DNA of 64,000 nt, from positions 24,394 to 88,393 of the forward strand of contig JAEUPC010000241.1 of the NCBI GenBank assembly GCA_016789865.1. The letters run 5' to 3'. Positions 19,766-38,563 of the stretch are shown here, piece after piece; position 1 is the first letter of the stretch; every line of letters starts with the position of its first letter. The notes below the pieces were generated by a model. That model had not been told where the DNA came from and made no database searches. It worked only from the letters and a program-made list of their open reading frames with translations. The DNA comes from Rubrivivax sp. (lineage in GTDB: Bacteria; Pseudomonadota; Gammaproteobacteria; Burkholderiales; Burkholderiaceae_C). The translations under genes and the position numbers were made by a program.

Positions 19766-20025
19766 TCTTTTCGTCGGTTCCCGTGGGCTCGCGCGCACTG
19801 CTCGTGCGTTGGTGCGGCGTGGTGGCTGCTGCCGTGCCCCAGGGTGAAGTGGCAGCGCGGTGGAGGCCGGTCCGCAAGGGGCGGCGAATGATGGCATCCA
19901 CCTCGGCGATGCCGCCCCTGCGCACCCTCCCTCCGGGGAGGGATACCTTGGTGTCATTCGCCGCGGCGGGGTCCTCGATGTGCAATGCGCCTCACCCACC
20001 GAACGCCACTCGCAGGAGGCCCGCC

Positions 20026-20817
20026 GTGCAGACCCTGACCCAGACTTCGATCCCGGTTCCGTCCCTTGCCTTCCGGGCCGCCGTGCCGCCGTTGGCAGGC
20101 GCCTCGTCGGCCTTCGCCGGCAGTCAGGCCGCGCCCTCGCGGCCTGCGAACACTGCGATGACGACGATGCCGCCGCTGATGCCCGCCGCCCAGCCGCGCA
20201 CTACCGGTCAGGCCGTGGCGCCCACGGCCGCACCGACGCCCGTGACGCCGCTGCGCTCCACGCGCCTGGCGGCGCTCGGCCATGCGCTGATGCAGCACCT
20301 GGAGACGCCTCTCATCGTCACCGACGCGATGGGCGCGGTGCTCGAGTGCAACCCGGCGGCCACGCGCCGCGTCGAGCGCTGCGAGGGCCTGTGGCTGGAC
20401 GCCGCCGGCCGCCTGGCGGTGCGTCAAGGCGGGCGCTGGGTGCCGATCACCAAGTGGCACGCCGAGCTGGTGGCCGGCCGCGGCGTGACGCTGCTGCTCG
20501 AAGCCGAGGGTGCCGCGATGCAGCTCGCGCTCAAGCCGATGACCGTGCACGATGGCGGCCTGGGCACCACGACCTGGGTGCTGGCCACCGTGGAGCGCGT
20601 GGTGCTGACGCGGGCCGACGCGATGCGCCGCCGCTTTCGGTTCACGCGCACGCAAGCCCGCCTGGCCGAGATGCTGTGCCAAGGCATGCGCCCGGCCAGC
20701 GCGGCCGAGGCGCTGGGCGTGAAGATCTCCACTGTGCGCACGCACGTGGGCGAGATGTACGAAAAGACCGGCACGCACAGCCAGGCGCAGCTGGTGGCGC
20801 TGCTGCACGCCTGCTGA
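20026..20817 (+). CDS. PAS-LuxR type transcriptional regulator
   Basis: Regulator of about 263 residues. A Pro/Ala-rich N terminus is followed by a PAS-like segment (ALMQHLETPLIVTDAMGAVL, near 85-105). The C terminus is a LuxR helix-turn-helix (FTRTQARLAEMLCQGM, then AAEALGVKISTVRTHVGEMY). GTG 20026 is chosen because AGGAGG lies 6 bases upstream; the longer in-frame ATG 19978 has no such site. There is no receiver or autoinducer domain. It is divergent from the diguanylate cyclase across about 260 bases that include a CCCTCC/GGAGGG hairpin, and might regulate it. Target unknown. Confidence 0.8.
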   Translation: MQTLTQTSIPVPSLAFRAAVPPLAGASSAFAGSQAAPSRPANTAMTTMPPLMPAAQPRTTGQAVAPTAAPTPVTPLRSTRLAALGHALMQHLETPLIVTDAMGAVLECNPAATRRVERCEGLWLDAAGRLAVRQGGRWVPITKWHAELVAGRGVTLLLEAEGAAMQLALKPMTVHDGGLGTTTWVLATVERVVLTRADAMRRRFRFTRTQARLAEMLCQGMRPASAAEALGVKISTVRTHVGEMYEKTGTHSQAQLVALLHAC

Positions 20818-20908
20818 ACGCCGCGGCCGGCGCCGCGTCGACGACGCCGCCGTTGCGGGCGGCGCTCGGGAGGATGGCTCTCGCGCTGTCGCGCCGTTGC
20901 GCTGTCGC

Positions 20909-20924
20909 CCTCAAGCGCTTGAGG
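20909..20924. other. 16-bp perfect palindrome between convergent genes
   Basis: CCTCAAGCGCTTGAGG is its own reverse complement and lies in the 126-base gap between the convergent luxR-type and M16 genes. It could be a symmetric terminator stem or a protein-binding site. No T-run follows on either side. Confidence 0.4.
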
Positions 20925-20943
20925 CCTTGGGCGCTCAATCGGC

Positions 20944-22227
20944 TCAGTCGCCCAGGGCCTGCCTCAGACGATCCCGCGTGCCCCGGCCCACCGCGCCGGT
21001 CAGCGCCACCGCCGGCGGCTGCACCAACAGACGCTCGAAGAACGCGCGCACCTGCTCGGCGCTGACGGCCTGCGTGCGCAGCGCCAGTTCATCGTCGCGC
21101 CGCGGCCGGCCGGTGGAGAACCAGTGCAACGCCGCGTCCTCCAGCCAACGCAGCCCGCGCTCCTGCGCGCGCAACCCGCGCACGGCGAGCTGGCGCTGCG
21201 CGCGCAGCAGCTCACCGGGCGCAGCCTGCGCGGCCTGCTCGTGCAGCAGCGCCTTCACCTCTACCAGCAACGAGGCCACGTCGGCCGGCGCCAGGCTGGC
21301 CTCGATGACGAACTGCCCGCACATGTCCAGCACGTCGGCCGAGCAGGCGGTGTAGTACGCAAGGCCGCGCTGCTCGCGCACGCGGTCCAGCAGCGGCGAG
21401 CTCATGCCCTCGCCGAACACGGCCGCCGCCACCGCGGCCAGCGGATCATCGGCGCGGCGGCTGGGCACCGGGTAGCCGAGCACCAGATGTGACTGGCTCG
21501 AACCGGCCAGCGCGCGCGTCAGCACGCCGCCGCGCCACGATGCAGGCGCCACCGCGGCCGGCACACCGGCGGGCATGGCGCCAAAAGCCCTCTCGGCCTC
21601 GCGCAACACCGCATCGGGGTCGACCGCGCCGACCACGCCGACCACCGTCTGCCCGGCGCGGTAGCCCTCGGCCCGGTAGGCCAGCAAGTCGGCGCGCGTG
21701 AAGCGCTCCAGGTTGCGCCGGCTGCCCATCACCGGTTGCGCCGCCGGGTGCATGCCGAACGAGGCCTTGTCGAAGAGCTTGAAGGCCGTGGACACCGGAT
21801 CGTCCTCGTCCTCGGCGTACTCCTGCAGCAGCACCTGGCGTTCGCGTTCGAGCTCGGCCTCGGGCAGGCTCGGGTACAGCACGATCTCCGCCAGCATGCG
21901 CAGCATGTCGCCGGCGTGCCCGGGCAGGCCGCGCATGTAGAACGCCGTGTGGTCCTTGTCGGTGTGCGCGTTGACCTCGGCGCCCAGGGTCTCGGCCTCG
22001 AGGTTCACCTGGCGCGCATCGCGCTTGCGCACGCCGCCGGGGGTCGGCAACTCCGTGCCCTTGAAAGCCATGTGCTCGAGCACGTGGCCGATGCCGTTCA
22101 GCCGCGTGCTCTCGTTGGCACTGCCCCAGCGCACGAACACCGCCACGCTGCACGTGCCGGCATGCGGCGCCTGCCCCACCAGCAGGCGCAGCCCGTTGGC
22201 CAGCGTGTGCGTGTGTTGTTCGATCAA
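20944..22227 (-). CDS. M16 family zinc peptidase
   Basis: Pitrilysin-type zinc protease of 427 residues, the usual size of a one-chain bacterial M16 protein (two of the half-units). The inverted zinc motif HxxEH is present as HVLEH (48-52), with the third ligand Glu near 129 (LERERQVLLQEY). The C-terminal half has GLAYYTAC and the Arg/Tyr region typical of M16B. No signal peptide, so probably cytoplasmic. These enzymes degrade small peptides, and some process peptide products. It is followed on the same strand by the selenium genes but separated from selD/senC by about 70 bases; a functional link is not evident. Confidence 0.88.
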   Translation of the reverse strand: MIEQHTHTLANGLRLLVGQAPHAGTCSVAVFVRWGSANESTRLNGIGHVLEHMAFKGTELPTPGGVRKRDARQVNLEAETLGAEVNAHTDKDHTAFYMRGLPGHAGDMLRMLAEIVLYPSLPEAELERERQVLLQEYAEDEDDPVSTAFKLFDKASFGMHPAAQPVMGSRRNLERFTRADLLAYRAEGYRAGQTVVGVVGAVDPDAVLREAERAFGAMPAGVPAAVAPASWRGGVLTRALAGSSQSHLVLGYPVPSRRADDPLAAVAAAVFGEGMSSPLLDRVREQRGLAYYTACSADVLDMCGQFVIEASLAPADVASLLVEVKALLHEQAAQAAPGELLRAQRQLAVRGLRAQERGLRWLEDAALHWFSTGRPRRDDELALRTQAVSAEQVRAFFERLLVQPPAVALTGAVGRGTRDRLRQALGD

Positions 22228-22301
22228 TCGCGGCGGGACGAGATGGATGCGCCGTGGATGTATCGCAGCTCGGCGCGTTCAGGCCGCCCCGGCGTGCCGG
22301 C

Positions 22302-23378
22302 TCAAGCCACCACGCGCAGCCCTGCCTTCGCCGACGCCTGCATGCGCCCGACCACCGCTGCCTGCTCGAAACCGTGACGGCCGAAGATGCCCAGCACCGC
22401 GTCCACCGACGCGGCGTCGCAGGCCACCAGCAGCCCGCCACTGGTCTGCGGGTCCGTCAGCAGCGCCTTGTCTTCGGCCGCAAAGTCCGCCGGCAGCGAC
22501 ACGTCCTTGCCGTAGCCGGCCCAGTTGCGGCCCGACGCGCCGGTCACGTAGCCCTGCGCGGCCAGCGCCCGCACGCCCGGCAGCTGCGGCACCGCTCGCC
22601 AGTCGATCTGCACTTCGGCGCCGGCGCCGCGTGCCATCTCCAGGCCGTGGCCGGCGAGGCCGAAGCCGGTGACGTCGGTGAGCGCGTGCACGCCCGGCAG
22701 CTCGGCCAGCTCGGGGCCTGGCGTGTTCAGCTTGGTGGTGTTGGCGATCATCTGCGCGTAGCCCGCATCGCCCAGCTGCCCCTTCTTCAGCGCTGCGCTC
22801 ATCACGCCCACCCCCAGCGGCTTGCCGAGCACGAGCACGTCGCCGGCCTTCGCGTCGGCGTTGCGCTTCACGCGCTTGGGGTGCACGAGGCCCAGCGCCA
22901 CGAGGCCGTAGATCGCCTCCACCGAGTCGATGGTGTGGCCGCCGGCCACCGGGATGCCCGCGGCGCGGCACACGCTGGTGCCGCCGTCGAGGATGCGGCC
23001 GATGGTCGCCGTGCTCAGCACGTTGATCGGCATGCCGACCAGCGCCAGCGCGAGGATCGGCCGCCCGCCCATTGCGTAGACGTCGCTGATGGCGTTGGTG
23101 GCGGCGATGCGGCCGAAGTCGAACGGGTCGTCGACGATCGGCATGAAGAAGTCGGTGGTGGCGATCAGCGCCTGCTCGTCGTTGAGCTGGTACACCGCCG
23201 CGTCGTCGGCGGTCTCGATGCCCACCAGCAGCTCCTTGGGCACCGCCATCGACGCAGTGCCCTTGAGGATTTCACTGAGCACGCCCGGCGCGATCTTGCA
23301 GCCGCAGCCGCCGCCGTGCGAAAGCGAGGTCAGGCGGGGCTCGGCGGCGATGGTGGCGTTCTTGTCGGGGGCGTTCAT
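22302..23378 (-). CDS. senC: Selenophosphate synthetase (SelD/SenC type)
   Basis: SelD-family enzyme of 358 residues. It makes selenophosphate from selenide and ATP in the cytoplasm. Seen are the N-terminal Gly-rich loop HGGGCGCK with catalytic Cys25 and Lys28 (Cys, not Sec), TTDFFMPIVDD, AISDVYAMGG, GGHTIDS and DVTGFGLAGH. It lies 77 bases downstream of the SenB-type glycosyltransferase on the same strand and near SenA- and EgtD-type genes, the selenoneine cluster arrangement in which this protein is named SenC. It could also serve selenocysteine or selenouridine synthesis, so selD is an equally valid name. Confidence 0.92.
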   Translation of the reverse strand: MNAPDKNATIAAEPRLTSLSHGGGCGCKIAPGVLSEILKGTASMAVPKELLVGIETADDAAVYQLNDEQALIATTDFFMPIVDDPFDFGRIAATNAISDVYAMGGRPILALALVGMPINVLSTATIGRILDGGTSVCRAAGIPVAGGHTIDSVEAIYGLVALGLVHPKRVKRNADAKAGDVLVLGKPLGVGVMSAALKKGQLGDAGYAQMIANTTKLNTPGPELAELPGVHALTDVTGFGLAGHGLEMARGAGAEVQIDWRAVPQLPGVRALAAQGYVTGASGRNWAGYGKDVSLPADFAAEDKALLTDPQTSGGLLVACDAASVDAVLGIFGRHGFEQAAVVGRMQASAKAGLRVVA

Positions 23379-23455
23379 GGTTCGGCGTTCTCCGGGAAGA
23401 CAGGATGTGGCACGTATCGGGCCGGGATGGGCGCGGCGTGATGATGCCGCTCTGT

Positions 23456-24451
23456 TCAACCCGAGGGGCGTTGCCGCAGCAGCCGCTGCACGATGCGCTG
23501 CAGCGCCGCCGACTCGGCCTGGGGCGAGAACAGCGCCGCGCGCGCCTCGATCTGGCGTGCCAGCGCCGGCAGCATAGCTGCATCGTCGCGGGCGCGCTCG
23601 ATGAGGGTTGCCAGCGCCTTGGCGTCGCCCACCGGGAAGTAGCCCCCGTAGTCGGCGCCGAGCAGGCCGACATTGCCGTCCATGCGCGAGCCGAGCACCG
23701 GCGTGCCCGAGCGGATGGCCTCGATCACCACCTGTGCCCCGCCCTCCATCACGCTGGGGTGCACCAGCACATGGGCCTGCTGGATGCGCCGGCGCGCCTG
23801 CCCATGCCCGAGCGCGCCGAGCCAGCGGTAGTGCGGGTGCTCGGCCATCAGCGCGCGCGCCTGCTGCGCCAGGTTCTCGTCGAGCCCCTGGCCGATGTGG
23901 TCGAAACGCAGGTCGCCGCGACCGGCGAGCCGGCGGATCGCGGCGAACCAGGTGGCCGGGTCCTTCTCGTCGCGCAGGTGGCCCACCATCACCGCGCGCA
24001 GGGTGTTGCGCGGCTTGTCCGGTCGCGGCCGGCGCGCCGAGCACGACTGCAGCACGACGTGGCAACGCGTCCGCCAGCGCGCCGGCAAGCGCGCGGGGCC
24101 GAGTTCGTTGAGCACGACGAAGGCATCGGCCAGCTCGAGCGAGCGCTGCGCATCGGCGTCCTCGTCGATGTCACGGTACAGATCGGTGCCGGTCAGCGCC
24201 AGCAGCAACGGCGCACGCGGTCGCGCCGCGCGCCATGCGGCGATCGAGGCCGCCGAGCGCCGCGCGTGCAGCGCGATCATCAGCGCGTCGTCGGCCGACC
24301 GAGCGTCGCCATCGGGCTTCCACAGCTTGGTCAGCCGCACGCTGTAAGCTGGGCCGAGCAGCCGCGCCCAACGTTGGGCGGTGCGCCAGTTGCCGTTGTT
24401 GGCATCGGCCAGCGCGGGCGTGACGATGACGATCTGGGGCTTGCGATGCAC
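23456..24451 (-). CDS. senB: Selenosugar synthase SenB (TIGR04348-type glycosyltransferase)
   Basis: GT4-like glycosyltransferase of 331 residues. It opens with IVIVTPALADANNGNWRTA and has the donor-binding region EGGAQVVIEAIRSGTPVLGS, as in the family once called TIGR04348 that is now known as SenB. In the selenoneine pathway SenB uses selenophosphate and a UDP-sugar to make a selenosugar. Context is strong: a selenophosphate synthetase downstream and an EgtB-like SenA gene upstream in the opposite direction. The start is GTG 24451, whose first codons overlap the senA start at 24446. Confidence 0.88.
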   Translation of the reverse strand: MHRKPQIVIVTPALADANNGNWRTAQRWARLLGPAYSVRLTKLWKPDGDARSADDALMIALHARRSAASIAAWRAARPRAPLLLALTGTDLYRDIDEDADAQRSLELADAFVVLNELGPARLPARWRTRCHVVLQSCSARRPRPDKPRNTLRAVMVGHLRDEKDPATWFAAIRRLAGRGDLRFDHIGQGLDENLAQQARALMAEHPHYRWLGALGHGQARRRIQQAHVLVHPSVMEGGAQVVIEAIRSGTPVLGSRMDGNVGLLGADYGGYFPVGDAKALATLIERARDDAAMLPALARQIEARAALFSPQAESAALQRIVQRLLRQRPSG

Positions 24452-25819
24452 GATGATGAAGGCTTAGCGGCCAACGTGGTGGCCAACGTGGTGGCCAACG
24501 TGGTGGCCATCGTGGTGGCCGACGGCCGGGCGGGTGCCGCAGGCGCCGCCCGCGCGGCCGGGGCGCAAGGCACCGCCGCTCCATCGGCCGGGGCGCCGTG
24601 TGGGGTTCCCGAGGCCGCGCGCCAGGCGCGCCAGGGAGATGCGTGTGCGCTGGCTGAAGCCCTGGTGGCGAGCCGGCACGACACCCTGGCGACGTTTGCC
24701 GCCTACGAGCGTGCGCTGCCCGGCTTGCAGGTGCCGCGGCGCGCCGAGTTGAACCCGCCGCTGTGGGAGCTGGGCCACATCGGCTGGTTCCAGGAGTACT
24801 GGCTCGGCCGCAACCCCCTGCGCGCTCAGGGCCACCGGGCCGACCCGCAGGCCCCGCGCGCAGTGCCGCTGCGGCCCGATGCCGACCGGCTGTACAACTC
24901 CAGCGAGGTTGCGCACGACACGCGCTGGTCGCTCCCGCTGCCCGATGCGGGTGCCACCCGCGGCGAGCTGGCCGTGCAGCTCGAACAGTCCCTGGCGTGC
25001 CTGGCTGCGCTGGGCGGCACCGGCGACGACGATGCGCTGTACTTCTACCGCCTCGCGCTGCTGCACGAAGACATGCACCACGAGGCGGCGCTGTACATGG
25101 CGCAGGGGCTGGGCTTCCCCATCGACGACGGCGGGCGCTGGCAGCCGCAACCGCTGCCCCCTGCACCGGGCGAACTGCGCTTCGATGCCGCGGCCTGGTC
25201 GCTGGGCAACGAGCAGCCCGCGGGCTTCGTGTTCGACAACGAGTTCGGCCGCTGCGTGGTGAACACCGGGCCCTTTGCCATCGACGCGCAGGCCTGCCGC
25301 TGGGCCGACTTCGTGCCGTTCATCGAAGCCGGCGGTTATGCCAAGCCGAGCCTGTGGAGCGCCACCGGCTGGGCCTGGCGCCAGGTACAGCAGGCCGAGG
25401 CGCCGCGCCATGTGCGCCGCGCCAACGGCGGCTGGGAACAACAGCGCCACGGCCGCTGGCAGGCGCTGAACCTGCATGAAGCGGCGTGCCACCTCACGCA
25501 GCACGAGGCCCACGCATGGTGCCGCTGGGCCGGCCGGCGCCTGCCCACCGAGGCCGAGTGGGAACGCGCCGCGCTCACGCGCCCCGGCGCCTTCCGCTGG
25601 GGCGACGTGTGGGAGTGGACCGCCTCGCCCTTCATGCCCCACGAGGGTTTCCACCCCCACCCCTACCGCGACTACTCGGCGCCATGGTTCGACGGCCGAC
25701 CGGTGTTGCGCGGCGCCTCGTTCATGACACAGCCGCGCATGAGCCACCCGCGCTATCGCAACTACTTTCCGCCCCATCGCAACGACGTGCCGGCCGGGCT
25801 GCGCAGCTGCGCGTTGTAG
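24446..25819 (+). CDS. senA: Selenoneine synthase SenA (EgtB-like)
   Basis: Non-haem iron enzyme of about 457 residues: DinB-like four-helix domain (about 65-225) and C-terminal formylglycine-generating/sulfatase-modifying-like domain (about 235-455). Candidate iron ligands are His111 (ELGHIGWFQ) and the His pair in LLHEDMHH (207-212). Other motifs are LPTEAEWERAA, WEWTASPF and RGASFMTQPRM. EgtB enzymes join sulfur to hercynine; the SenA branch joins a selenosugar to hercynine with O2, leading to selenoneine. Neighbouring senB, senC and egtD favour SenA over EgtB. The first 55 residues are low-complexity (ANVV repeats), so the true start may be later. Confidence 0.87.
   Translation: MHDDEGLAANVVANVVANVVAIVVADGRAGAAGAARAAGAQGTAAPSAGAPCGVPEAARQARQGDACALAEALVASRHDTLATFAAYERALPGLQVPRRAELNPPLWELGHIGWFQEYWLGRNPLRAQGHRADPQAPRAVPLRPDADRLYNSSEVAHDTRWSLPLPDAGATRGELAVQLEQSLACLAALGGTGDDDALYFYRLALLHEDMHHEAALYMAQGLGFPIDDGGRWQPQPLPPAPGELRFDAAAWSLGNEQPAGFVFDNEFGRCVVNTGPFAIDAQACRWADFVPFIEAGGYAKPSLWSATGWAWRQVQQAEAPRHVRRANGGWEQQRHGRWQALNLHEAACHLTQHEAHAWCRWAGRRLPTEAEWERAALTRPGAFRWGDVWEWTASPFMPHEGFHPHPYRDYSAPWFDGRPVLRGASFMTQPRMSHPRYRNYFPPHRNDVPAGLRSCAL
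24469..24516. repeat. 12-bp tandem repeat at the senB/senA divergent start
   Basis: Four adjacent copies of GGCCAACGTGGT (the fourth reads GGCCATCGTGGT), each with a CCA-N3-TGG dyad. In the senA frame it encodes ANVV repeats. It starts 23 bases after the senA ATG and 17 bases upstream of the senB GTG. It could be operator-like DNA controlling both genes if senA really starts downstream. Confidence 0.8.
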
Positions 25820-25982
25820 CCGCGGCCCGCCATGGCGCAGGGGCGCCGCTCGGTGCGGGCCCGGCGTAACCGCGCCGCCCGTCTGTAAGAACACCGCCCT
25901 CGGACGCGACCCAGTCCGGGTCACCGGATCCTTGCCCATGTCCGACCCGATCCCTGGCCGAGCCTGCCACGCGCGGCGGAGT

Positions 25983-26972
25983 TCAAGCGCGCGCGACGAA
26001 CACCCCGAACCAGCCTTGCGGGTCGGTGAAGCAGCGCACGGCGCCGTAGCCGGCCGCGTGCAGCAGCGCCTCGAAGCCGGCCGCCCGCCACTTGTACGAG
26101 TTCTCGGTGTGGATGCGCTCGCCCGCGCCGAAGCGGCGCTCGCCGCCTTCACCGCTGCCGGCGGCTCCCTGCGGCCAGCGCACGGTGAGCGTTTCGCGCG
26201 CCTCCAGATGCATCTCGATGCGCGAGTGGCGCGTATCGAACAACGCCACATGCCGCCACTGCCGCAGATCGAAGTCGGTGCCAAGGAGTGCGTTCAGCCG
26301 CCGCAGCAGGTTGAGGTTGAAGGCCGCGGTCACGCCCAGCGGGTCGTCGTAGGCCAGTTCCAGCGCGGCGCGGTCCTTCACCAGGTCGGCACCGATCAGC
26401 AGGCTGCCGCCCTGCCGGCATTGGGCACGGGCCTGGGACAGCAGCCGCACGGCCTCGGCCGGGGCGAAGTTGCCGATGCTCGAGCCTGGGTAGAAGACGA
26501 GCGCCGGGCCGTCCACGAGTTCAGCCGGCAGCGCCAGCCGCGTGGCGAAGTCCTGCCCCACGCCCACGAGGTCCACGGCCGGGTGCTCGCGCTGCAGCCC
26601 GGCCAACGCCTCGCGCAGGTAGTCCACCGAGATGTCGACGGCGACGTAACGCCTTGGCTGCACGGCCGCAAAGAGCTTCGCCGCCTTGGCGCAGCTGCCC
26701 GCACCCAGGTCCACCATCACCGGCTGCGGGCCGGTGCCGCCGAGTACGGCGTCGGCGATCGCCGCGCCCTGCGCGGCGAAGATGCCGGCTTCGGTGCGCG
26801 TGGGGTAGTACTCGTCCAGCTCGGTGATCGCGTCGAACAGGCGCGAGCCCAGCAGGTCGTAGAAGAACTTGGGCGACACCGCCGCCGCGCTTGCACGCAG
26901 CCCCGCCTCGGCCTCGGCAGCCAGCAAGCCCGCGTCGAGTGAATCGAGCTGGAAGAAACGGGGTGCCTTCAT
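25983..26972 (-). CDS. egtD: L-histidine N-alpha-methyltransferase EgtD
   Basis: SAM-dependent methyltransferase of 329 residues that trimethylates histidine to hercynine, the precursor of ergothioneine and selenoneine. Motifs: FFYDLLGSRLFDAITELDEYYPTR (N-terminal EgtD signature, residues about 37-60), SAM motif VDLGAGSCAK, FYPGSSIGNF, and the substrate region ADLVKDRAALELAYDDP. It is convergent with senA across about 160 bases and divergent from the selenium-type transporter. With no other ergothioneine genes nearby, it most likely feeds SenA. ATG 26972 gives the family start. Confidence 0.93.
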   Translation of the reverse strand: MKAPRFFQLDSLDAGLLAAEAEAGLRASAAAVSPKFFYDLLGSRLFDAITELDEYYPTRTEAGIFAAQGAAIADAVLGGTGPQPVMVDLGAGSCAKAAKLFAAVQPRRYVAVDISVDYLREALAGLQREHPAVDLVGVGQDFATRLALPAELVDGPALVFYPGSSIGNFAPAEAVRLLSQARAQCRQGGSLLIGADLVKDRAALELAYDDPLGVTAAFNLNLLRRLNALLGTDFDLRQWRHVALFDTRHSRIEMHLEARETLTVRWPQGAAGSGEGGERRFGAGERIHTENSYKWRAAGFEALLHAAGYGAVRCFTDPQGWFGVFVARA

Positions 26973-27118
26973 CGTATCGTCCTGGTGGGCGGTTCGCTGC
27001 ACCCGGCGATCAGGTCGATCGGCGGGTCGCACGGCGCCACCCTTGCGGCCCGGGGCCTTCGGGGTCGGCCCCCTGTTGCCGCAAGTCCCAGCGTCGCACT
27101 CTAGCAGCGCAGCGCCGA

Positions 27119-27124
27119 TAGAGT
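27119..27124 (+). promoter_or_regulatory. Candidate -10 box for the selenium transporter operon
   Basis: TAGAGT lies about 42 bases before the substrate-binding protein start, within the 193-base divergent gap shared with egtD. A TAGAGT read on the other strand (ACTCTA, 27099-27104) could serve egtD. No -35 box is obvious for either. Confidence 0.25.
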
Positions 27125-27165
27125 CGCGGCCTGTCCCTTGACCCTTACAGCCAGGAGAGAGCGTC

Positions 27166-28041
27166 ATGATCAGCTTGTCCCCCTCGCGCACCCTGCGTGC
27201 GCTGGCCACCGTCGCGCTTGTCGGCTTCGGTGCCTTCGCCCACGCGCAGCAGGTGTTCCGCGTCACCACCATCCCCGAGGAAGCGGCCACCGAACAGGTG
27301 CGCAAGTTCACCCCGATCGCTTCTTACCTCGAGAAGCGGCTGGGCATGAAGGTCGAGTTCACCCCCGTCAACGACTACCCCGCCGCCGTCGAAGCCCTGG
27401 TCAACAAGAAGGTCGACCTGGTCTGGTTCGGCGGCTTCACGCACGTGCAGGCGCAGTTGCGCTCCGGCGGCAAGATCATCCCCATCGCGCAGCGCGAGGA
27501 AGACACCAAGTTCCAGTCGGTGTTCATCGCCAAGACCGACTCGGGCATCAAGACCCTGTCCGACCTGAAGGGCAAGCAGATCAGCTTCGGCTCGCAGAGC
27601 AGCACCTCGGGCCACCTGATGCCGCGCAACTTCCTGCTGGAGGCCGGCCTCAACCCCGAGAAGGACTTCAAGCGCATCGCCTACAGCGGGGCGCACGACG
27701 CCACCATCGCCTCGGTGGTCAGCGGCAAGGTCGAGGCCGCCGCGCTCGACATCACCGTGTGGCGCAAGTTCGTCAGCGAGAACAAGGTCGACACCAAGGC
27801 GGTCAACGTCTTCTACACGACGCCGCCGTTCTTCAACTACAACTGGTCGGTGCATGCCGACCTGCCCGCGGCGCTGCGCGAGAAGATCACCAAGGCCTTG
27901 CTCGACCTGGACGCCGGCACGCCCGAGGGCAAGGAGATCCTGCAGCTGAACCGGGCCACGCGCTACATCCCCACCAAGGCCGAGAATTACAAGGGCCTGG
28001 AGGCCGCCGGGCGCAGCGCCGGGCTGATTGGCGCGCCTTGA
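27166..28041 (+). CDS. Putative selenate/selenium-oxyanion ABC transporter binding protein
   Basis: Periplasmic binding protein of 291 residues, PhnD-like fold. Signal peptide to about 27 (LATVALVGFGAFAHAQ). Mature protein shows RVTTIPEEAATEQVRKF, VDLVWFGGFTHVQA and ISFGSQSSTSGHLMPR. It fits the PhnD-related subfamily annotated as putative selenate ABC transporter binding protein (TIGR04553-type), and the adjacent selenoneine genes strengthen that. AGGAGA lies 8 bases before ATG 27166. First gene of a four-gene importer. The ligand (selenate, selenite or another oxyanion) is inferred. Confidence 0.85.
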   Translation: MISLSPSRTLRALATVALVGFGAFAHAQQVFRVTTIPEEAATEQVRKFTPIASYLEKRLGMKVEFTPVNDYPAAVEALVNKKVDLVWFGGFTHVQAQLRSGGKIIPIAQREEDTKFQSVFIAKTDSGIKTLSDLKGKQISFGSQSSTSGHLMPRNFLLEAGLNPEKDFKRIAYSGAHDATIASVVSGKVEAAALDITVWRKFVSENKVDTKAVNVFYTTPPFFNYNWSVHADLPAALREKITKALLDLDAGTPEGKEILQLNRATRYIPTKAENYKGLEAAGRSAGLIGAP

Positions 28042-28087
28042 GCGGCCCCGCGCCCCGCCCGGCTGCCGTTCGCGAAAGCGCGCCGAA

Positions 28088-28951
28088 GTGAAGCTCGAAC
28101 TTGACGGCCTCGCGGCCCGCCATCCGGCCGCCAAGGCCGGGGCCGCGCCGGCCCTGCAGTCCACCAGCCTGGCGGTGGCCGCCGGCGAAGCGGTGGCCAT
28201 CATCGGCGCCTCCGGCGCCGGCAAGACCACCTTGCTGCAGGTGCTGGCATGTGCGCATCGGCCCAGCGCCGGCACGTTGCGGGTCGATGGCGTGGACCCG
28301 TGGGCGCTGCCCCGGCGTGCGCTGCACCGGTTGCGCGGGCGCCTGTTCCTCGCGCCGCAGGTGCCGCCGCTGCCGCCGCGCCAGCGCGTGGTCACCGCGG
28401 TGCTGGCCGGCCGGCTGCCGGCCATGAGCCTGGCCACCAGCCTCCGCTCGCTGTTCTATCCGGTGGACATCCCCGCGGCCCACGCCGCGCTGGAACAGTT
28501 CGACATCGCCGACAAGCTCTTCGAACGCGTCGATCGCCTCTCCGGCGGCGAGCGCCAGCGCGTGGGCCTGGCGCGCTCGCTGCTGTCGCCGGCGCGGCTG
28601 TGGCTGGTCGACGAGCCGTTGTCGGCGCTGGACCCCACGCGTGCCCGACGGGCCACCGAGACGCTGGTGCGCGAGGCACGCACACGCGGCGTCACGCTGG
28701 TGGCCACGCTGCACCAGGTGGACATGGCGCTGGCGCATTTCCCGCGCATCGTCGGCCTGCGCGAGGGCCGCGTGGCGTTCGACCTGCCCACCGCGCTGGT
28801 CACGCGCGAGCGCCTGGAGCGCCTGTACGCGCAGCATGAGTACGAGCTCCTGGGCGGCCACACCGCGCCCGCCGATGCGCCTGCAGCACACGCGGACGCG
28901 AACGACGACGAGCCGCACCGCGCCGCGCCGGTGGTGATGCACTGCCGCTGA
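28088..28951 (+). CDS. ABC transporter ATPase, PhnC-like (selenium importer)
   Basis: ATPase subunit of 287 residues. Walker A GASGAGKTT near 42, signature LSGGERQR near 155, Walker B LWLVDEP near 173 and switch His in TLHQVDMA. A variable acidic/Ala-rich tail ends the chain. GTG 28088 is chosen because it begins the conserved VKLELDGL; an in-frame TTG at 28028 would overlap the binding-protein gene. It powers the two permeases that follow. Confidence 0.85.
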   Translation: MKLELDGLAARHPAAKAGAAPALQSTSLAVAAGEAVAIIGASGAGKTTLLQVLACAHRPSAGTLRVDGVDPWALPRRALHRLRGRLFLAPQVPPLPPRQRVVTAVLAGRLPAMSLATSLRSLFYPVDIPAAHAALEQFDIADKLFERVDRLSGGERQRVGLARSLLSPARLWLVDEPLSALDPTRARRATETLVREARTRGVTLVATLHQVDMALAHFPRIVGLREGRVAFDLPTALVTRERLERLYAQHEYELLGGHTAPADAPAAHADANDDEPHRAAPVVMHCR

Positions 28952-28979
28952 TCCCCGGCCGAACCCGCCGCTCGCTCTC

Positions 28980-29822
28980 ATGACCACCGCCACCTCCGCC
29001 GGGCCCGCCCCACCCAGCCGCGACCCGGCCTGGCTGGCGCGCTTGTTCTGGATCGGCGCCTTCTTCGTCGTGCTGTGGCCGCTCTTCGTGGCCACCGAGT
29101 TCAAGCCCTGGATCCTCGTCGAGCAGAAGAACCTCGAAGTCACGGGCCAGTTCCTGGCCAGCTTCGTGCCGCCCGCGCACGGCCGGGAGTTCCTGTGGAT
29201 GGTGGCCAAGGAGTCGTGGGCCACGGTGGCCATGGCCACGGTGGGCATGACGCTGGCGCTGGTCATCGCGATCCCGCTGACGCTGCTGTCGGCGCGGGCG
29301 CTGTCGATCTCGGCGCTGTCGGGCCGCATGGCGCGTGGGCCGTTCTGGTTGCGCCAGCTCGTGCGCTGGGCGCTGATCGTGCTGCGCAGCGTGCCCGAAC
29401 TCGTGTGGGCGCTGGTCTTCGTGCGTGTGGTGGGCCTGGGCCCCACGGCCGGCGTGCTGGCCATCGCGCTCACCTACGGCGGCATGCTCGGCAAGGTCTA
29501 CGGCGAGATTCTCGAAAGCGGCGATGCGCACGTCACCGACACACTGCTGCGCAACGGCAGCTCGCGGCTGCAGGCGTTCTTTTACGGCCTGCTGCCGCAG
29601 AACGCGGCCGAGCTCACGAGCTACACCGTCTACCGTTGGGAATGCGCCATCCGCAGCTCGGTGATCCTCGGCTTCGTCGGTGCCGGGGGCCTCGGCCAGC
29701 AGCTGGACAACTCGATGAAGATGTTCAACGGCGGCGAGGTGCTGACGATGCTCGCCGTGTTCGTGGCCCTGGTGGCGCTGGCCGACCGCGTCAGCGCCGG
29801 CCTGCGGCGCGCACTCGGCTGA
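28980..29822 (+). CDS. ABC transporter permease 1, PhnE-like (selenium importer)
   Basis: Inner-membrane permease of 280 residues with about six hydrophobic segments and the PhnE-type coupling motif LRSVPELVWALVFV. The C-terminal part has YRWECAIRSSVILGFVGAGGLG. It lies 28 bases after the ATPase gene and 22 before the second permease. It probably pairs with that permease as a heterodimer, since both share the RSxPELVWA and VGAGGLGQ motifs. Confidence 0.87.
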   Translation: MTTATSAGPAPPSRDPAWLARLFWIGAFFVVLWPLFVATEFKPWILVEQKNLEVTGQFLASFVPPAHGREFLWMVAKESWATVAMATVGMTLALVIAIPLTLLSARALSISALSGRMARGPFWLRQLVRWALIVLRSVPELVWALVFVRVVGLGPTAGVLAIALTYGGMLGKVYGEILESGDAHVTDTLLRNGSSRLQAFFYGLLPQNAAELTSYTVYRWECAIRSSVILGFVGAGGLGQQLDNSMKMFNGGEVLTMLAVFVALVALADRVSAGLRRALG

Positions 29823-29844
29823 GCCCGCCTCCTGGATCCGCAAG

Positions 29845-30672
29845 ATGAGCCCGCACTCCGCCGCCAACGCGCCCTACCGGCTGCCGCCGCGCCTGTTCGA
29901 CGCGCGCTGCCGCGCCTGCTGGTTCACCGCCGCCGTGCTGGTGCTCGTCGTCGCCAGCTTCGCCACGTTGAACCTGCAGTGGCGGCAGTTCCTTTCGCTG
30001 GAAGCCGTGCACAGCATGGGCCGCTTCATCGGCGAGTTCTTCCCGCCGGACACGAGCCCGGCCTTCCTGCGCAAGGTGCTGGTGGGGACCTGGGAAACGC
30101 TGGCGATGTCTGCGCTGGGCACGCTGCTGGCCGCGGCACTGGGCCTGGCCCTGGCGCTGCCGGCCAGCCGCCTGTACGAAGGCCACGCGGCGCGGCTGCG
30201 CATGGCCACGCGGCTGGTGCTCAACGCGCTGCGCTCGATCCCCGAACTGGTGTGGGCCGCACTGCTGCTCATCTCGGCCGGTCTCGGGCCCTTCGCCGGC
30301 ACGCTGGCGCTGGCGATGCACACCACGGGCGTGCTCGGGCGGCTGTTCGCCGAAGCGATCGAGAACGCCCCGCCCGGCCCGGGCGCGGCGCTGCGCGCGC
30401 AAGGCGTGGGCAACGGCCGCGTGTTCCTCTACGCCACGCTGCCGCAGGTGCTGCCGCAGCTGATGAGCTACACGCTGTACCGCTGGGAGAACAACATCCG
30501 CGCCGCGGCGGTACTGGGCGTCGTCGGCGCCGGGGGCCTGGGCCAGCTGCTGGCCTTCCACATGGGCCTGTTCCACATGAACAAGACGGCCACGATCCTC
30601 GGCGCGATGCTGCTGCTGGTGGCGCTGGTGGATGCGCTGAGCTATTCCACCCGGCGCTGGATGACCCGCTGA
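29845..30672 (+). CDS. ABC transporter permease 2, PhnE-like (selenium importer)
   Basis: Second permease, 275 residues, paralogous to the first: LRSIPELVWAALLL, then YRWENNIRAAAVLGVVGAGGLGQ. About six hydrophobic segments begin at WFTAAVLVLVVASF. Two different PhnE-type permeases per importer is the arrangement of the putative selenate transporter group. The next gene, an ATP-grasp enzyme, begins 26 bases later on the same strand. Confidence 0.87.
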   Translation: MSPHSAANAPYRLPPRLFDARCRACWFTAAVLVLVVASFATLNLQWRQFLSLEAVHSMGRFIGEFFPPDTSPAFLRKVLVGTWETLAMSALGTLLAAALGLALALPASRLYEGHAARLRMATRLVLNALRSIPELVWAALLLISAGLGPFAGTLALAMHTTGVLGRLFAEAIENAPPGPGAALRAQGVGNGRVFLYATLPQVLPQLMSYTLYRWENNIRAAAVLGVVGAGGLGQLLAFHMGLFHMNKTATILGAMLLLVALVDALSYSTRRWMTR

Positions 30673-30698
30673 AGACATCCCTGGACAGAGACAACCCG

Positions 30699-32129
30699 AT
30701 GCTGATGCCCTCGGCCTGGAACCCGCTCGACCCGCCGCGCGTCGGCTGGATGTTCGCCTACGACTGGGACCGCGTCGCGCGCGACGCGCTGCAGGCGCAC
30801 GGCCGCGCGCGCTTCGATCACGCCGGGTTCGACCTCTTCAGCTTCCCGAGCAACATCGGCCTGCCGCTGTTCGACCACGAGCGCTTCGCCGCGCGCCAGG
30901 CCGCGCGCGGGCGCCGCCTGCGCTGGCAGGCGGTGATCTCGCAGCAGGAGCACTTCGGTGCGCTGGCCGCCTCGCTGGTGGCCGAGAAGCTCGGCCTGCC
31001 CGGCACGCCGCCGCAGAGCATCCTGGCCGCCCAGCACAAGCTGCACGCGCGCCGCGTGCTCCAGCGCGTGGCCCCCGAGGCCAACCTCGGCTTCGCCGAC
31101 CTCGATGCCGTCTACGGCGGCGACATCCCGCACGGCCTGGCCTACCCGGCCTTCGTCAAGCCGGTGAAGGCGGCGTTTTCGGTGCTGGCGCGGCCGGTGG
31201 CCGACCGCGATGTGCTGCAGGCCCACACACGCTTCGGCCGCCGCGAGCTGTGGGTCATCCGCCGCCTGGTGGACCCCTTCGACCGCCTGTGCCGCGCGCG
31301 GCTGCCCGAAGCCGGGCCGGCGCACCGCATGCTTCTGGAAGAGCCGATGCCCGCGCAGGTGCCGCAGTTCAACCTCGACGGCTACGTCGACAACGGCCAC
31401 GTGCATGCGCTGGGGGTCGTCGACGCGATCATGTACCCCGGCACCGCCGCGTTCATGCGCTGGGAGCACCCGAGCCGGCTGCCGGCCGCCGTGCAGCAGC
31501 GCGCGCTGGACGTGGCACGGCGCTTCCTGGCCGCCATCGGCTACCGCCATGGCATGTTCAACCTCGAGTTCTTCTACGACCATGCGCGTGACCGCCTGAG
31601 CGTGATCGAGTGCAACCCGCGGCTGGCTTCGCAGTTCGGCGACCTTTATCGCCGCGTGCACGGGCGCGACCCGCATGCGATGGGCCTGGCGCTGGCGCTG
31701 GGGCGCGACCCGCTCACCGCACCGCGCTGCGAGCCCAGCGCCAACGTGGCAGCCAGCCTCGTCTACCGCGCTTTCGATCCGGGCGCCGTGCCCGCGCCAC
31801 CCTCGGCCGGCCGGCGGCTGGCCTTCGACAAGGCGTTCCCCGGCGCGCTGATGTTCAGCTTCCCCAAGACCGGCTACGCGCTGGCGCGCGACTTCAAGTG
31901 GACGGGCAACCACCACTACGGCATCGTGCACCTGGGCGCGCGTGACCGCGGCGAGCTTCGCGAGCGGGCCGAGCGCGCCAGCGCCACGCTCGGCTGGCCC
32001 GCGCCCTACGCCGACCACCCCGCCAGCCGCATGCTGCACCCGGGTGCAGACCCGCTGCCCGCCCTCCTCAACGCCGCGCCGCGCTGGAACGCGGCCGCGC
32101 ATGTCAACCCGATCGGAGCCTCCGACTGA
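30699..32129 (+). CDS. ATP-grasp enzyme of unknown substrate
   Basis: Protein of 476 residues. The middle and C-terminal parts look like an ATP-grasp domain: KPVKAAFSVLARPV, ELWVIRRLV, LLEEPMPAQVPQFNLDGYVD, and the metal-binding acid region FNLEFFYD followed by VIECNPRLASQFGDLY near 300-320. ATP-grasp enzymes activate a carboxylate as acyl phosphate and join it to an amine or thiol. No signal peptide. It is the last gene after the selenium-type importer with 26 bases spacing, so probably co-transcribed, and ends 2 bases before a YHS lipoprotein start. ATG 30705 is an alternative start. Substrates cannot be told from sequence. Confidence 0.72.
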   Translation: MLMPSAWNPLDPPRVGWMFAYDWDRVARDALQAHGRARFDHAGFDLFSFPSNIGLPLFDHERFAARQAARGRRLRWQAVISQQEHFGALAASLVAEKLGLPGTPPQSILAAQHKLHARRVLQRVAPEANLGFADLDAVYGGDIPHGLAYPAFVKPVKAAFSVLARPVADRDVLQAHTRFGRRELWVIRRLVDPFDRLCRARLPEAGPAHRMLLEEPMPAQVPQFNLDGYVDNGHVHALGVVDAIMYPGTAAFMRWEHPSRLPAAVQQRALDVARRFLAAIGYRHGMFNLEFFYDHARDRLSVIECNPRLASQFGDLYRRVHGRDPHAMGLALALGRDPLTAPRCEPSANVAASLVYRAFDPGAVPAPPSAGRRLAFDKAFPGALMFSFPKTGYALARDFKWTGNHHYGIVHLGARDRGELRERAERASATLGWPAPYADHPASRMLHPGADPLPALLNAAPRWNAAAHVNPIGASD

Positions 32130-32131
32130 CC

Positions 32132-32776
32132 ATGGAACGCATCGCCCTGCCCCTGCCCCACTTGAACCACCGCGCTCGCCGGAGGCGAATCGCCGCCGGT
32201 GCCGCGCTTGTCGTGGTGGCCGCGGCGCTGACCGCCGGCTGCTCGTCGATGACGGCGCAGAACCCCAGCAGCGCGCTCAAGCCCGTCAATGCCGTGCCCG
32301 ACGGCGGCGACGACCGCGTGATGCTCAAGGGCGCCGACGTCACCGCCTACTTCACGCAGGGCCGCTACGTGCAGGGCTCGCCGCAGTTCAAGAGCGTGTA
32401 CGAAGGGGTCACCTTCCGCTTTGCCAGCACCGACGCGAAGAAGCTCTTCGACGCCGAGCCGAAGAAGTACCTGCCGCAGTTCGGCGGCTACTGCGCCAAC
32501 GGCGTGTCGTTCGCCATCCCGTGGGGCGGCGACGCCGACACCTTCCGCATGGAAGGCGCTCGCCTGCTCATCTTCGGCGGCAAGGAGAGCAAGGACGCGT
32601 TCGAGCTCGACGTACCGGGCAACCTGAAGCTGGCCGAGAAGTACTGGAACGAAGAGATCGCCGGCAACAACAGCTGGTGGCAGCGCTACAAGCGCATGGT
32701 CTTCCGCGTGCCGCACTACAAGAGCGGTCCAGAGCTGGCCAAGATGGTGGCCGACGCGAAGGCCAGGAAGCCCTGA
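32132..32776 (+). CDS. YHS-domain lipoprotein, copy 1
   Basis: Lipoprotein of 214 residues. Basic N terminus, hydrophobic stretch and lipobox LTAGC near 37. The YHS-like core has GADVTAYFTQGRYVQGSPQFKS, VTFRFASTDAKKLFDAEPKKYLPQFGGYCANG and WGGDADTF. YHS domains often occur in metal-related or oxyanion-related proteins, but no specific role is known here. Starts 2 bases after the ATP-grasp stop, so likely in the same transcript. Close paralogue of the next gene. Confidence 0.8.
   Translation: MERIALPLPHLNHRARRRRIAAGAALVVVAAALTAGCSSMTAQNPSSALKPVNAVPDGGDDRVMLKGADVTAYFTQGRYVQGSPQFKSVYEGVTFRFASTDAKKLFDAEPKKYLPQFGGYCANGVSFAIPWGGDADTFRMEGARLLIFGGKESKDAFELDVPGNLKLAEKYWNEEIAGNNSWWQRYKRMVFRVPHYKSGPELAKMVADAKARKP
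32300..32403. repeat. 104-bp identical tract, copy 1
   Basis: These 104 bases are identical to 32938-33041 in the next gene. They encode GGDDRVMLKGADVTAYFTQG and the residues following. Perfect identity, including third codon positions, points to a recent tandem duplication or gene conversion. Confidence 0.95.
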
Positions 32777-32802
32777 ACGCACAACGAGGAGATCACTCAG
32801 CC

Positions 32803-33414
32803 ATGAACGCCATGCCCCGTGCCGCCTTGCGCCGACTGGCCCCGGCGATCGTCGTCACCGCCATGCTGCTGGGCGGCTGCACGGCGATGGTGGCCCAGAA
32901 CCCCTCAGGCACGCTGAAGCCCGTGAATGCCGTGGCCGACGGCGGCGACGACCGCGTGATGCTCAAGGGCGCCGACGTCACCGCCTACTTCACGCAGGGC
33001 CGCTACGTGCAGGGCTCGCCGCAGTTCAAGAGCGTGTACGAGGGCGTCACCTTCCGCTTCGCCAGTGCCGAGAGCAAGGCGTTGTTCGACGCCAGCCCGA
33101 AGAAGTACCTGCCCGAATACGGAGGCTACTGCGCCAACGGCATCGTCTACGCCATTCCGTGGGGCGGCGACGCCGACAGCTTCAAGATGATCGGCGGCAA
33201 GCTGTACATCTTCGGCGGTGCCGGCAGCCGCGACGGCTGGGACCTTGACGTGCCAGGCAACCTCAAGCGGGCCGACGGCTACTGGAAGGACGAGGTCGCC
33301 GGCAACAACAGCTGGTGGCAGCGCTACAAACGCCTGGTGTTCCGCGTGCCGCACTACAAGAGCGGTGGTGAACTGGCCAAGTTGGTGGCCGAGGCGAAGG
33401 CCAGGAAGAACTGA
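32803..33414 (+). CDS. YHS-domain lipoprotein, copy 2
   Basis: Lipoprotein of 203 residues, tandem paralogue of the previous one, with lipobox LGGC near 25 (AIVVTAMLLGGC). The core YHS region and the C-terminal NNSWWQRYKR and PHYKSGGELAKLV are shared almost word for word. It differs in the signal region and around the middle (SAESKALFDASPKKYLPEYGGYCANG). GAGGA lies about 12 bases before ATG 32803. Likely second gene of the same transcript. Confidence 0.8.
   Translation: MNAMPRAALRRLAPAIVVTAMLLGGCTAMVAQNPSGTLKPVNAVADGGDDRVMLKGADVTAYFTQGRYVQGSPQFKSVYEGVTFRFASAESKALFDASPKKYLPEYGGYCANGIVYAIPWGGDADSFKMIGGKLYIFGGAGSRDGWDLDVPGNLKRADGYWKDEVAGNNSWWQRYKRLVFRVPHYKSGGELAKLVAEAKARKN
32938..33041. repeat. 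104-bp identical tract, copy 2
   Basis: Second copy of the tract at 32300-32403. Flanking sequence in the two genes diverges at many third positions, so the identity is limited to this segment. Confidence 0.95.
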
Positions 33415-33450
33415 GCTGAGCTGCCTCGGGGGCTCGGTGGAGCCCTCGGG

Positions 33451-33482
33451 TGCACGGGTGCACGGGTGCACGGGTGCGCGGG
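33451..33482. repeat. 8-bp tandem repeat (TGCACGGG)4
   Basis: Three exact TGCACGGG units and one TGCGCGGG, 36 bases after the YHS copy 2 stop and in the gap before the convergent third YHS gene. No gene is seen in this 183-base gap. Confidence 0.85.
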
Positions 33483-33597
33483 TTGCGTTGGCGTGGCGCG
33501 CGCCAAGGCCGCCGGGCAGTCGGCGTCGCTCATGTCCTTTCTCGAGGGGCCAGCTTTGCCGGTCCCTCGAATGCACCCCCGCGTGAGCTTCCTCGCC

Positions 33598-34323
33598 TCA
33601 GGGCGGATAGCCCAGCGCCGGTTGCCCGAACCCTTCGGCCGAGCGCCAGCCGGGCTTCTTCAGGAACAGGTTGTTCACCATGCCGCCGGGGTCATAGGTG
33701 GGATGGACGCGGCCGGGGTTCTTGGCCTCCCACTGCGCCTTGATCTGCGCGCCGGTGAGGTAGTGCGGCACCTTGTCGATGTAGCTCATCAGCGACACGC
33801 CGCGCCAGCCCTTGTCACGGATCTCGGGCCACAGGCGGTCGGCATGCGCGATGTTCCATGCCGGGTCCACCCCCCACGCGGTCTGGCCGAGGATGTCGCC
33901 GAAGATGAACAGGCGCCCGTCGCGGATGACCCACGACGCGGGGTCGCTGCCCAGCTTGATGCGGAAGGCCGCGCCGCTGGCGCAGAAGCCGCCGTACTGC
34001 GGCTCGTACTTGGCCGGGTTGGCCTCGAACAGCGCCTTGTGTTCGGCACTGGCGAAGTAGTAGGTGCGCTCGGGCAGGTGGACGCTGATCTTCGGGTCGC
34101 CGCGCGCAGGCTGGCCGCGGGTGAAGTAGGCCACCGGGTCGTGGCCCAGCAGCATCACCGGGCGGCCGTCGCCCGTGGCCGGCACCGTGGCGTAGGGCGT
34201 GCCGCAGCCGGCGAGGGCCAGCAGCGCCAGGCCGGCCAGCAGCCAGGCCAGCCGCCTGACCAGCGACACAGCGGCGACGCCTGACGCTTCTCGTGGGGAG
34301 AGCAGGCGCGTCAAGGTGTTCAT
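33598..34323 (-). CDS. YHS-domain lipoprotein, divergent third copy
   Basis: Lipoprotein of 241 residues with lipobox LAGC near 40 (LLAGLALLALAGC). The YHS-like core is HDPVAYFTRGQPARGDPKI, RTYYFASAEHKALFEANPAKYEPQYGGFCASG and FRIKLGSDP. It is clearly related to the two genes to the left but distant, with a longer C terminus (VNNLFLKKPGWRS). On the opposite strand and convergent with copy 2. GAGGAG lies 6 bases before the ATG at 34323, which supports that start. Function unknown. Confidence 0.8.
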   Translation of the reverse strand: MNTLTRLLSPREASGVAAVSLVRRLAWLLAGLALLALAGCGTPYATVPATGDGRPVMLLGHDPVAYFTRGQPARGDPKISVHLPERTYYFASAEHKALFEANPAKYEPQYGGFCASGAAFRIKLGSDPASWVIRDGRLFIFGDILGQTAWGVDPAWNIAHADRLWPEIRDKGWRGVSLMSYIDKVPHYLTGAQIKAQWEAKNPGRVHPTYDPGGMVNNLFLKKPGWRSAEGFGQPALGYPP

Positions 34324-34435
34324 GTCGTGCTCCTCGGGCAATGGGTTGCGGGCGGCTGCAGGGGTGCCTTCGCGGCGGGCTGCGGCGAAGGCGCAGGCCC
34401 TGGGCATCGCGCCGCGCCGGATGTCGGCGGCGCCT

Positions 34436-37193: not shown

Positions 37194-37206
37194 GAGGGCC
37201 GCAGGT

Positions 37207-38406: not shown

Positions 38407-38563
38407 GCGGCAATGATGGCCCCACTCGGACCGGATCGCTCCCTGATCGTGGCTCGGCATGGCCGGGCCGCCGAAAACCCGCCGCAGCCGACCCCGGCCC
38501 GAAGCGCCGGCGTGTAATGGCCTTCGGCGCGGCCCGACAGTCAGGGCTACAGCAGGAGCCCCA

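Follow-up and report, generated by a model that had tools for sequence, protein, structure and literature searches.

A Rubrivivax selenoneine locus with a putative selenium importer and an ATP-grasp gene that follows the sen trait in Burkholderiales

Introduction

A three-gene sen pathway to selenoneine has been described (extracts of PMC10702425 and PMC10891094), and the sen cluster of Variovorax paradoxus is likewise presented, in the extracts consulted, as three genes. Here we analysed a stretch of 64,000 nucleotides from Rubrivivax sp. (contig JAEUPC010000241.1; the whole stretch is hereafter called the window), in which the locus discussed lies at 22302-32129. As in V. paradoxus, orthologues of SelD/SenC, SenB and SenA are adjacent and have the same predicted chemistry; in addition, the Rubrivivax cluster holds EgtD, a four-gene importer, an ATP-grasp protein and YHS-domain lipoproteins in 12 kb. 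We read it as a self-contained selenoneine locus that would lead from uptake to product and carry an added tailoring module, and we give this reading a probability of roughly 0.55. The core selenoneine pathway is already known; the module made of the ATP-grasp protein, the YHS lipoprotein and, in relatives, a methyltransferase is the new part worth testing.

Other described systems resemble parts of the locus. The EgtB/EgtD pathway of ergothioneine shares EgtD, and SenA is a relative of EgtB; the SenA studied here, however, lies outside the EgtB clade and under the EgtB cut-off, and a separate EgtB is encoded in the same genome. The model TIGR04553 describes the substrate-binding protein (SBP) of a putative selenate ATP-binding cassette (ABC) transporter found in the same cluster as SelD; the SBP of the window passes it and lies within a selenoneine cluster. 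The guess that the importer carries selenate is already in that NCBIfam name, as putative, and is not new here. For the ATP-grasp protein, the closest solved folds are L-amino-acid ligases (3vot of Bacillus licheniformis, BacD/YwfE and RizA), although identity to them is 12-15% and there is no sequence-family match. DedA/TVP38 (VTT) proteins fill the place of the importer in two related loci, whereas the window cluster has none. An extract of a 2026 review counts selenoneine and ovoselenol as two novel selenometabolites of bacteria and states that prokaryotes have no identified transport system that is specific and of high affinity for selenium (PMC13188914); an ABC transporter-related ATPase is listed among the neighbours of orphan selD genes in an extract of PMC5029168.

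Results

Layout of the locus

Gene calls were scored against the NCBIfam curated cut-offs. An earlier note, made from the sequence alone, had named a compact selenium locus of importer, selenophosphate synthetase, SenB, SenA, EgtD and an ATP-grasp enzyme; all of these genes are present at 22302-32129 in open frames, with identities given mostly by NCBIfam models (scores in bits):

22302-23378, minus strand: SelD/SenC, selenophosphate synthetase (PRK00943 532.7, cut-off 299; TIGR00476 421.3, cut-off 125)
23456-24451, minus strand: SenB, selenosugar synthase, a GT-B glycosyltransferase (TIGR04348 427.2, cut-off 300)
24446-25819, plus strand: SenA, selenoneine synthase (NF041186 499.1, cut-off 420; EgtB model 217.1, cut-off 360; tree)
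25983-26972, minus strand: EgtD, histidine N-alpha-methyltransferase, which makes hercynine (TIGR03438 341.5, cut-off 290.9)
27166-28041, plus strand: SBP of a putative selenate ABC importer (TIGR04553 363.0, cut-off 250; PhnD 177.2, below its cut-off of 261.1)
28088-28951, plus strand: importer ATPase, PhnC-like (best specific model TIGR02315 (PhnC) 177.3, below its cut-off of 266.1; Pfam ABC_tran)
28980-29822, plus strand: importer permease A, PhnE-like (TIGR01097 199.2, below its cut-off of 216.7; Pfam BPD_transp_1)
29845-30672, plus strand: importer permease B, PhnE-like (TIGR01097 262.6, above its cut-off of 216.7)
30699-32129, plus strand: ATP-grasp protein, carboxylate-amine ligase-like, from an unnamed family that accompanies the sen trait (fold, conservation, co-occurrence)
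32132-32776, plus strand: YHS-domain lipoprotein 1 (NF041384 94.7, cut-off 70), 2 bases past the ATP-grasp stop codon
32803-33414, plus strand: YHS-domain lipoprotein 2, a tandem paralogue placed by its likeness to lipoprotein 1
33598-34326, minus strand: YHS-domain lipoprotein 3, convergent and more distant (NF041384 107.1, cut-off 70); the true start is possibly inside this range

The order is selD and senB (minus), senA (plus), egtD (minus), then the SBP, ATPase and two permease genes followed by the ATP-grasp gene (all plus). The unit continues beyond 32129 with two YHS lipoprotein genes on the same strand and a third that is convergent. Rfam gave no match at gathering scores across 20000-35000.

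For relatives of the ATP-grasp protein, 84,980 species genomes were scanned and 278 relatives found; the best 80 of the 278, from Rubrivivax, Aquabacterium, Hydrogenophaga, Rhodoferax, Limnobacter, Ideonella and other genera, are referred to as the named loci. The layout is not a matter of chance, since it recurs among them: 31 of the 80 contain the SBP gene, and 27 of these 31 also hold SenA or SenB.

Core selenoneine genes

SelD adjoins senB and has cysteine, not selenocysteine, in its loop (GGGCGCK); SenC is reported to reject sulfide. SenB carries the motif EGGAQV, and the motif reported for SenB in an extract of PMC10891094 is EGGAHV. The senA gene is divergent from senB, and their start codons overlap if the annotated ATG is used. 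Just within this divergent start region, at 24469-24524, a 12-base unit occurs in 4.7 copies, which would translate into VANV repeats at the N-terminus of SenA; the SenA start may lie further in than the annotated ATG.

The earlier note had taken the EgtB-like protein for SenA rather than a member of the sulfur (EgtB) branch, and both the model scores and a tree of 58 proteins bear this out: the protein lies in a SenA clade of 22 rows (100/100), apart from 36 EgtB rows. Five genomes (G264, G294, G003, G132 and G100) each encode two SenA-family proteins above the cut-off; in G264 and G294 the additional copies group in a separate clade and may make another product.

The genome from which the window comes (assembly 77% complete) has a separate true EgtB elsewhere, in a methyltransferase-EgtB-YHS cluster on contig C79 (L182:8527-11478). 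Both chalcogen versions are therefore encoded in the organism, which may also make ergothioneine. The only SelD above the cut-off is that of the locus, and neither SelA nor MnmH was found in the assembly; as far as it shows, selenoneine is hence the only use of selenophosphate detected.

Distribution of the ATP-grasp gene

Co-occurrence of the ATP-grasp protein, SenB and the SBP was counted in 300 genomes of the order, where SenB and the SBP were called present above their NCBIfam cut-offs; SenB was found in 87 of them. Sixty genomes match the ATP-grasp protein at E <= 0.001, and 34 were counted as carriers of the real family (at least 37% identity across most of the length, including copies split between frames, as in G046 and G179, and a few others containing a stop). 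The remaining 26 gave weak partial matches only, none better than E 3e-8; one of these, in the SenB-containing genome G030, is a 47-residue fragment at 47% identity.

Both genes were present in 31 genomes, ATP-grasp only in 3, SenB only in 56 and neither in 210 (p=7e-16); SenB thus accompanies 31/34 carriers, which belong to 12 families, vs 56/266 non-carriers. The link persists when stratified by family (permutation P=1.75e-4; Cochran-Mantel-Haenszel p=8.6e-5), the negatives in this test being limited to those among the matches listed. As for the three carriers without SenB, two (G059 and G147) have SenA over the cut-off and one (G170) a SenB fragment. Besides the window, only 8 of the 34 loci fetched from the order show a linkage of the ATP-grasp gene to sen, selD or egtD genes, indicating that the genome-wide association is not mere adjacency. 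The ATP-grasp gene is tied to the sen trait more strongly than adjacency alone shows.

The named loci are not independent of the 300 genomes (at least L144, L151 and L161 apparently recur there, as G137, G175 and G198). In 41/80 the retrieved flank encodes SenA or SenB, in three of them (L136, L169 and L173) solely by matches shorter than 150 residues, and in 47/80 it encodes any of SelD, SenB, SenA and EgtD. Among the 39 named genomes with neither SenA nor SenB nearby, SenB was found elsewhere in 27 (E <= 1e-40). An exclusive tie between the ATP-grasp gene and SenB was rejected, as no SenB was detected at this threshold in the other 12 of these 39.

Among the 228 genomes of the class sample that lie outside the order, 8 hold relatives of the ATP-grasp protein (E <= 1e-30), at 25-38% identity where aligned; two of the eight genomes have SenB (G419 and G422), and all eight proteins were treated as wider relatives. 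A distant relative in a genome lacking SenB (38% identity; L194:8409-9776) lies directly 3' of a large molybdopterin-oxidoreductase-like gene, named by eye. A literature search pairing selenoneine with ATP-grasp found nothing, the primary sen and ovoselenol papers being outside the search; pairing ATP-grasp with ergothioneine gave only papers judged unrelated from the titles listed.

Fold and conserved residues of the ATP-grasp protein

No Pfam or NCBIfam family matches the ATP-grasp protein above its cut-off. Below the cut-offs are PRK02186 (48.5 bits of 625) and Pfam ATP-grasp_4 (E 0.018, 15.1 bits vs 27), and a sequence search of solved structures gave nothing below E 0.026. The predicted model is confident (predicted local distance difference test, pLDDT, 89.3; predicted template-modelling score, pTM, 0.88) and has an ATP-grasp fold. 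Two L-amino-acid ligases account for the top five PDB chains in Foldseek (3vot twice; BacD/YwfE 3vmm, 3wnz and 3wo1; E 2.6e-19 to 7.5e-18), and a third ligase, RizA, is at rank 7.

In an alignment of 115 rows, K114, K154, E214, E290, E304, N306 and R308 are each identical in at least 110 of the rows reaching them, and the protein has an N-terminal GFDLFxFPxN motif. Invariant Lys, Glu and Asn are expected of ATP-grasp enzymes, and the conserved residues would have the roles usual for the fold. Membership of the ATP-grasp superfamily is indicated by the predicted fold together with the conserved Lys, Glu and Asn, and not by the Pfam gathering score. The fold, resembling L-amino-acid ligases, and the invariant residues suggest ATP-driven activation of a carboxylate followed by attack of an amine.

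YHS lipoproteins and methyltransferase

A YHS lipoprotein gene lies immediately 3' of the ATP-grasp gene in 49/80 named loci. A 4-base overlap of the two genes is seen in 22 of the 45 pairs measured, and the spacing is within -4 to +7 in 37 of the 45, by a measure that takes the ATG nearest the ATP-grasp stop and favours short gaps. In a set of 52 YHS proteins that includes the three of the window, 51 show a lipobox-like motif, and Cys37, Cys121 and His195 (numbering of lipoprotein 1) are found in all 52. A homologue of lipoprotein 3 is present in 7/80 named loci.

A small class I methyltransferase was searched for (E <= 1e-20) in the 34 carriers and in hand-chosen controls, namely 23 of the 56 SenB-containing non-carriers and 23 SenB-lacking genomes selected because their score to the SenA model was in the EgtB range. 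It was found in 21/34 carriers, 2/23 SenB-containing non-carriers and 0/23 SenB-lacking genomes (21/34 vs 2/46 controls, p=1.4e-8). Of the 21 carriers, 8 have the gene directly 5' of the ATP-grasp gene and another 7, including the Rubrivivax genome, have it next to an EgtB-type gene; the Rubrivivax genome has a second copy at G000:C156:52658-53254. In fold, the methyltransferase is closest to a phosphatidylethanolamine N-methyltransferase (8ys9, TM score by query length 0.77), with many generic methyltransferases ranking behind.

The methyltransferase gene and a second EgtB-like gene stand beside the ATP-grasp gene in L118 and other loci. These pairs were likened to the ovoselenol enzymes OvsM/OvsA. 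Such an ovoselenol module was rejected by model score and tree: the EgtB-like copy of L118 scores 547.8 bits to EgtB, and the copies adjacent to the methyltransferase fall among the EgtBs of SenB-lacking genomes, in a tree holding no OvsA reference.

Other genes recur around the ATP-grasp gene. DUF547 genes are present in 22/80 named loci, and 17/80 contain all or part of a TVP38-oxidoreductase fusion (full length in 10). In L043 (10619-13687), and also in L145, L155 and L166, this fusion of a VTT domain with a pyridine nucleotide-disulfide oxidoreductase adjoins the ATP-grasp gene; in L043, L145 and L155 a DUF547 protein accompanies it.

The importer

In the 300 genomes, the SBP and SenB occur together in 36, the SBP only in 30, SenB only in 51 and neither in 183 (p=6e-7); SenB is present in 36/66 genomes with the SBP vs 51/234 without it. 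With the 27 of 31 named loci given above, this shows the importer co-occurring with sen genes in relatives, as the earlier note had expected. The importer may feed the selenoneine pathway, as the note further proposed; the link is not exclusive, since 30 of the 66 SBP genomes have no SenB above the cut-off, and the note's interpretation as a whole is partly supported. SelD is encoded in 26 of these 30, vs 26/40 chosen genomes with neither the SBP nor SenB (p=0.036), a weak comparison because SelD is common there. In three of the SenB-lacking genomes (G058, G166 and G171) the SBP and selD genes are divergent, 250-350 bases apart. The SBP passes TIGR04553 by 113 bits and fails the PhnD equivalog model. 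This would fit import of selenium for whichever pathway uses selenophosphate.

A membrane protein with a VTT domain (DedA/TVP38) occupies, in L031 and L104, the slot between egtD and the ATP-grasp gene, where the importer lies in the window; this suggests that it is another uptake protein. The two are not strict alternatives, because L125 holds both. The title of Ledgham 2005, cited in PMC10127716, links DedA to selenite resistance, which only hints at a tie to selenium.

Flanking genes

A 427-residue M16 peptidase (20944-22227) adjoins selD, and the same neighbour is found in L102, L105, L107 and L116. Further upstream, at 18623-20817, are a GGDEF protein and a LuxR-type regulator. On the other side, at 34436-38616 (minus strand), lies an Mla-type lipid transport set of auxiliary lipoprotein, MlaD, ATPase and MlaE.

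Discussion

In the reading we favour, the ABC importer would take up a selenium oxyanion, which would be reduced to selenide elsewhere and converted by SelD/SenC to selenophosphate. SenB would then make the selenosugar and EgtD hercynine, and SenA would join the selenium of the selenosugar to hercynine, with elimination and reduction yielding selenoneine, as reported for homologues. From the fold and the gene company we infer that the ATP-grasp protein may modify selenoneine. As a carboxylate-amine ligase acting on selenoneine or a close relative, it would phosphorylate the carboxylate, most simply that of the betaine, and couple it with an amine, for example an amino acid. Since the carboxylate of selenoneine is free and its amine fully methylated, selenoneine could only be the carboxylate partner. 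The YHS lipoprotein, with its conserved GGxC cysteine and frequent translational coupling to the ATP-grasp gene, might perhaps serve the same compound, or a redox partner, outside the cytoplasm; in relatives the small S-adenosylmethionine-dependent methyltransferase would be part of the same module. The fullest form of this proposal is tentative and we place it short of even odds: the ATP-grasp protein would be an unrecognised selenometabolite ligase that, with the methyltransferase in relatives, turns selenoneine into an amide-linked and possibly methylated conjugate, aided by a dedicated YHS lipoprotein.

Several observations weigh against a selenoneine-tailoring module. The ligase matches are at 12-15% identity and query TM 0.57-0.62, with PurK, PurT and biotin carboxylase close behind in the Foldseek ranking. 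The ATP-grasp protein is not needed for selenoneine synthesis, as 56 of the 87 SenB genomes do without it. SenB was not detected (E <= 1e-40) in the genomes of 12/80 named carriers: three of these loci (L103, L108 and L132) are short contigs cut within the importer and one (L159) retains selD and egtD, while the other eight, including Rhodoferax antarcticus ANT.BR (L166), which is not labelled a metagenome assembly, may be real exceptions, with genome completeness not reported. Of the 23 SenB-lacking controls 14 entered the tree, 13 with EgtB and one (G158) with a protein of EgtB/SenA type placed in the SenA clade on a long branch. The carriers without SenB, the separation of the ATP-grasp/YHS pair from senA in most carriers (8/34 linked) and the recurrence of DUF547 genes and of the whole or partial TVP38-oxidoreductase fusion (22/80 and 17/80 loci) would suit an ordinary sen cluster with bystanders, in which the pair has some other role, in the envelope or in redox chemistry, that happens to be frequent in these lineages. 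We consider this unlikely, though it keeps a real share of the probability: the co-occurrence with SenB is strong across 12 families and survives stratification by family, and varied layouts with sen genes recur. Doubtful as well, yet a serious contender, is that the substrate tailored by the ATP-grasp protein and the methyltransferase is ergothioneine, or else both chalcogen betaines, and not selenoneine alone. The module could serve ergothioneine because the methyltransferase also adjoins ordinary EgtB genes, in the Rubrivivax genome (L182) and in others, and EgtB adjoins the ATP-grasp gene in L118, L121, L132 and L137. However, the methyltransferase is present in none of the 23 SenB-lacking genomes with an EgtB-range match, and three carriers (G046, G233 and G211) have a single SenA-family match, above the SenA cut-off, and no separate EgtB.

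It is improbable that the importer is here by chance and transports some other oxyanion, such as phosphonate or phosphite. The importer is a system of the PhnCDE type and permease B passes the PhnE cut-off, but the SBP, at 363 bits to TIGR04553, is under the PhnD cut-off, and it pairs with selD in three SenB-lacking genomes, to which the weak SelD comparison adds. Least probable of all, in our view, is a module whose target is a lipid or the YHS lipoprotein itself, through amino-acylation of a lipid or protein, for instance. The best fold match of the methyltransferase and the lipoprotein partner would agree with it; the fold matches are generic, however (1462 at E <= 0.001), and nothing else seen points to lipids.

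The locus offers a candidate importer within a selenoneine cluster, in a genome where no other use of selenophosphate was detected, and an uncharacterised ligase-like family with its partners, which follows the sen pathway across 12 families. If the selenoneine-tailoring reading is true, part of the sen-bearing Burkholderiales would make an undescribed selenium compound.

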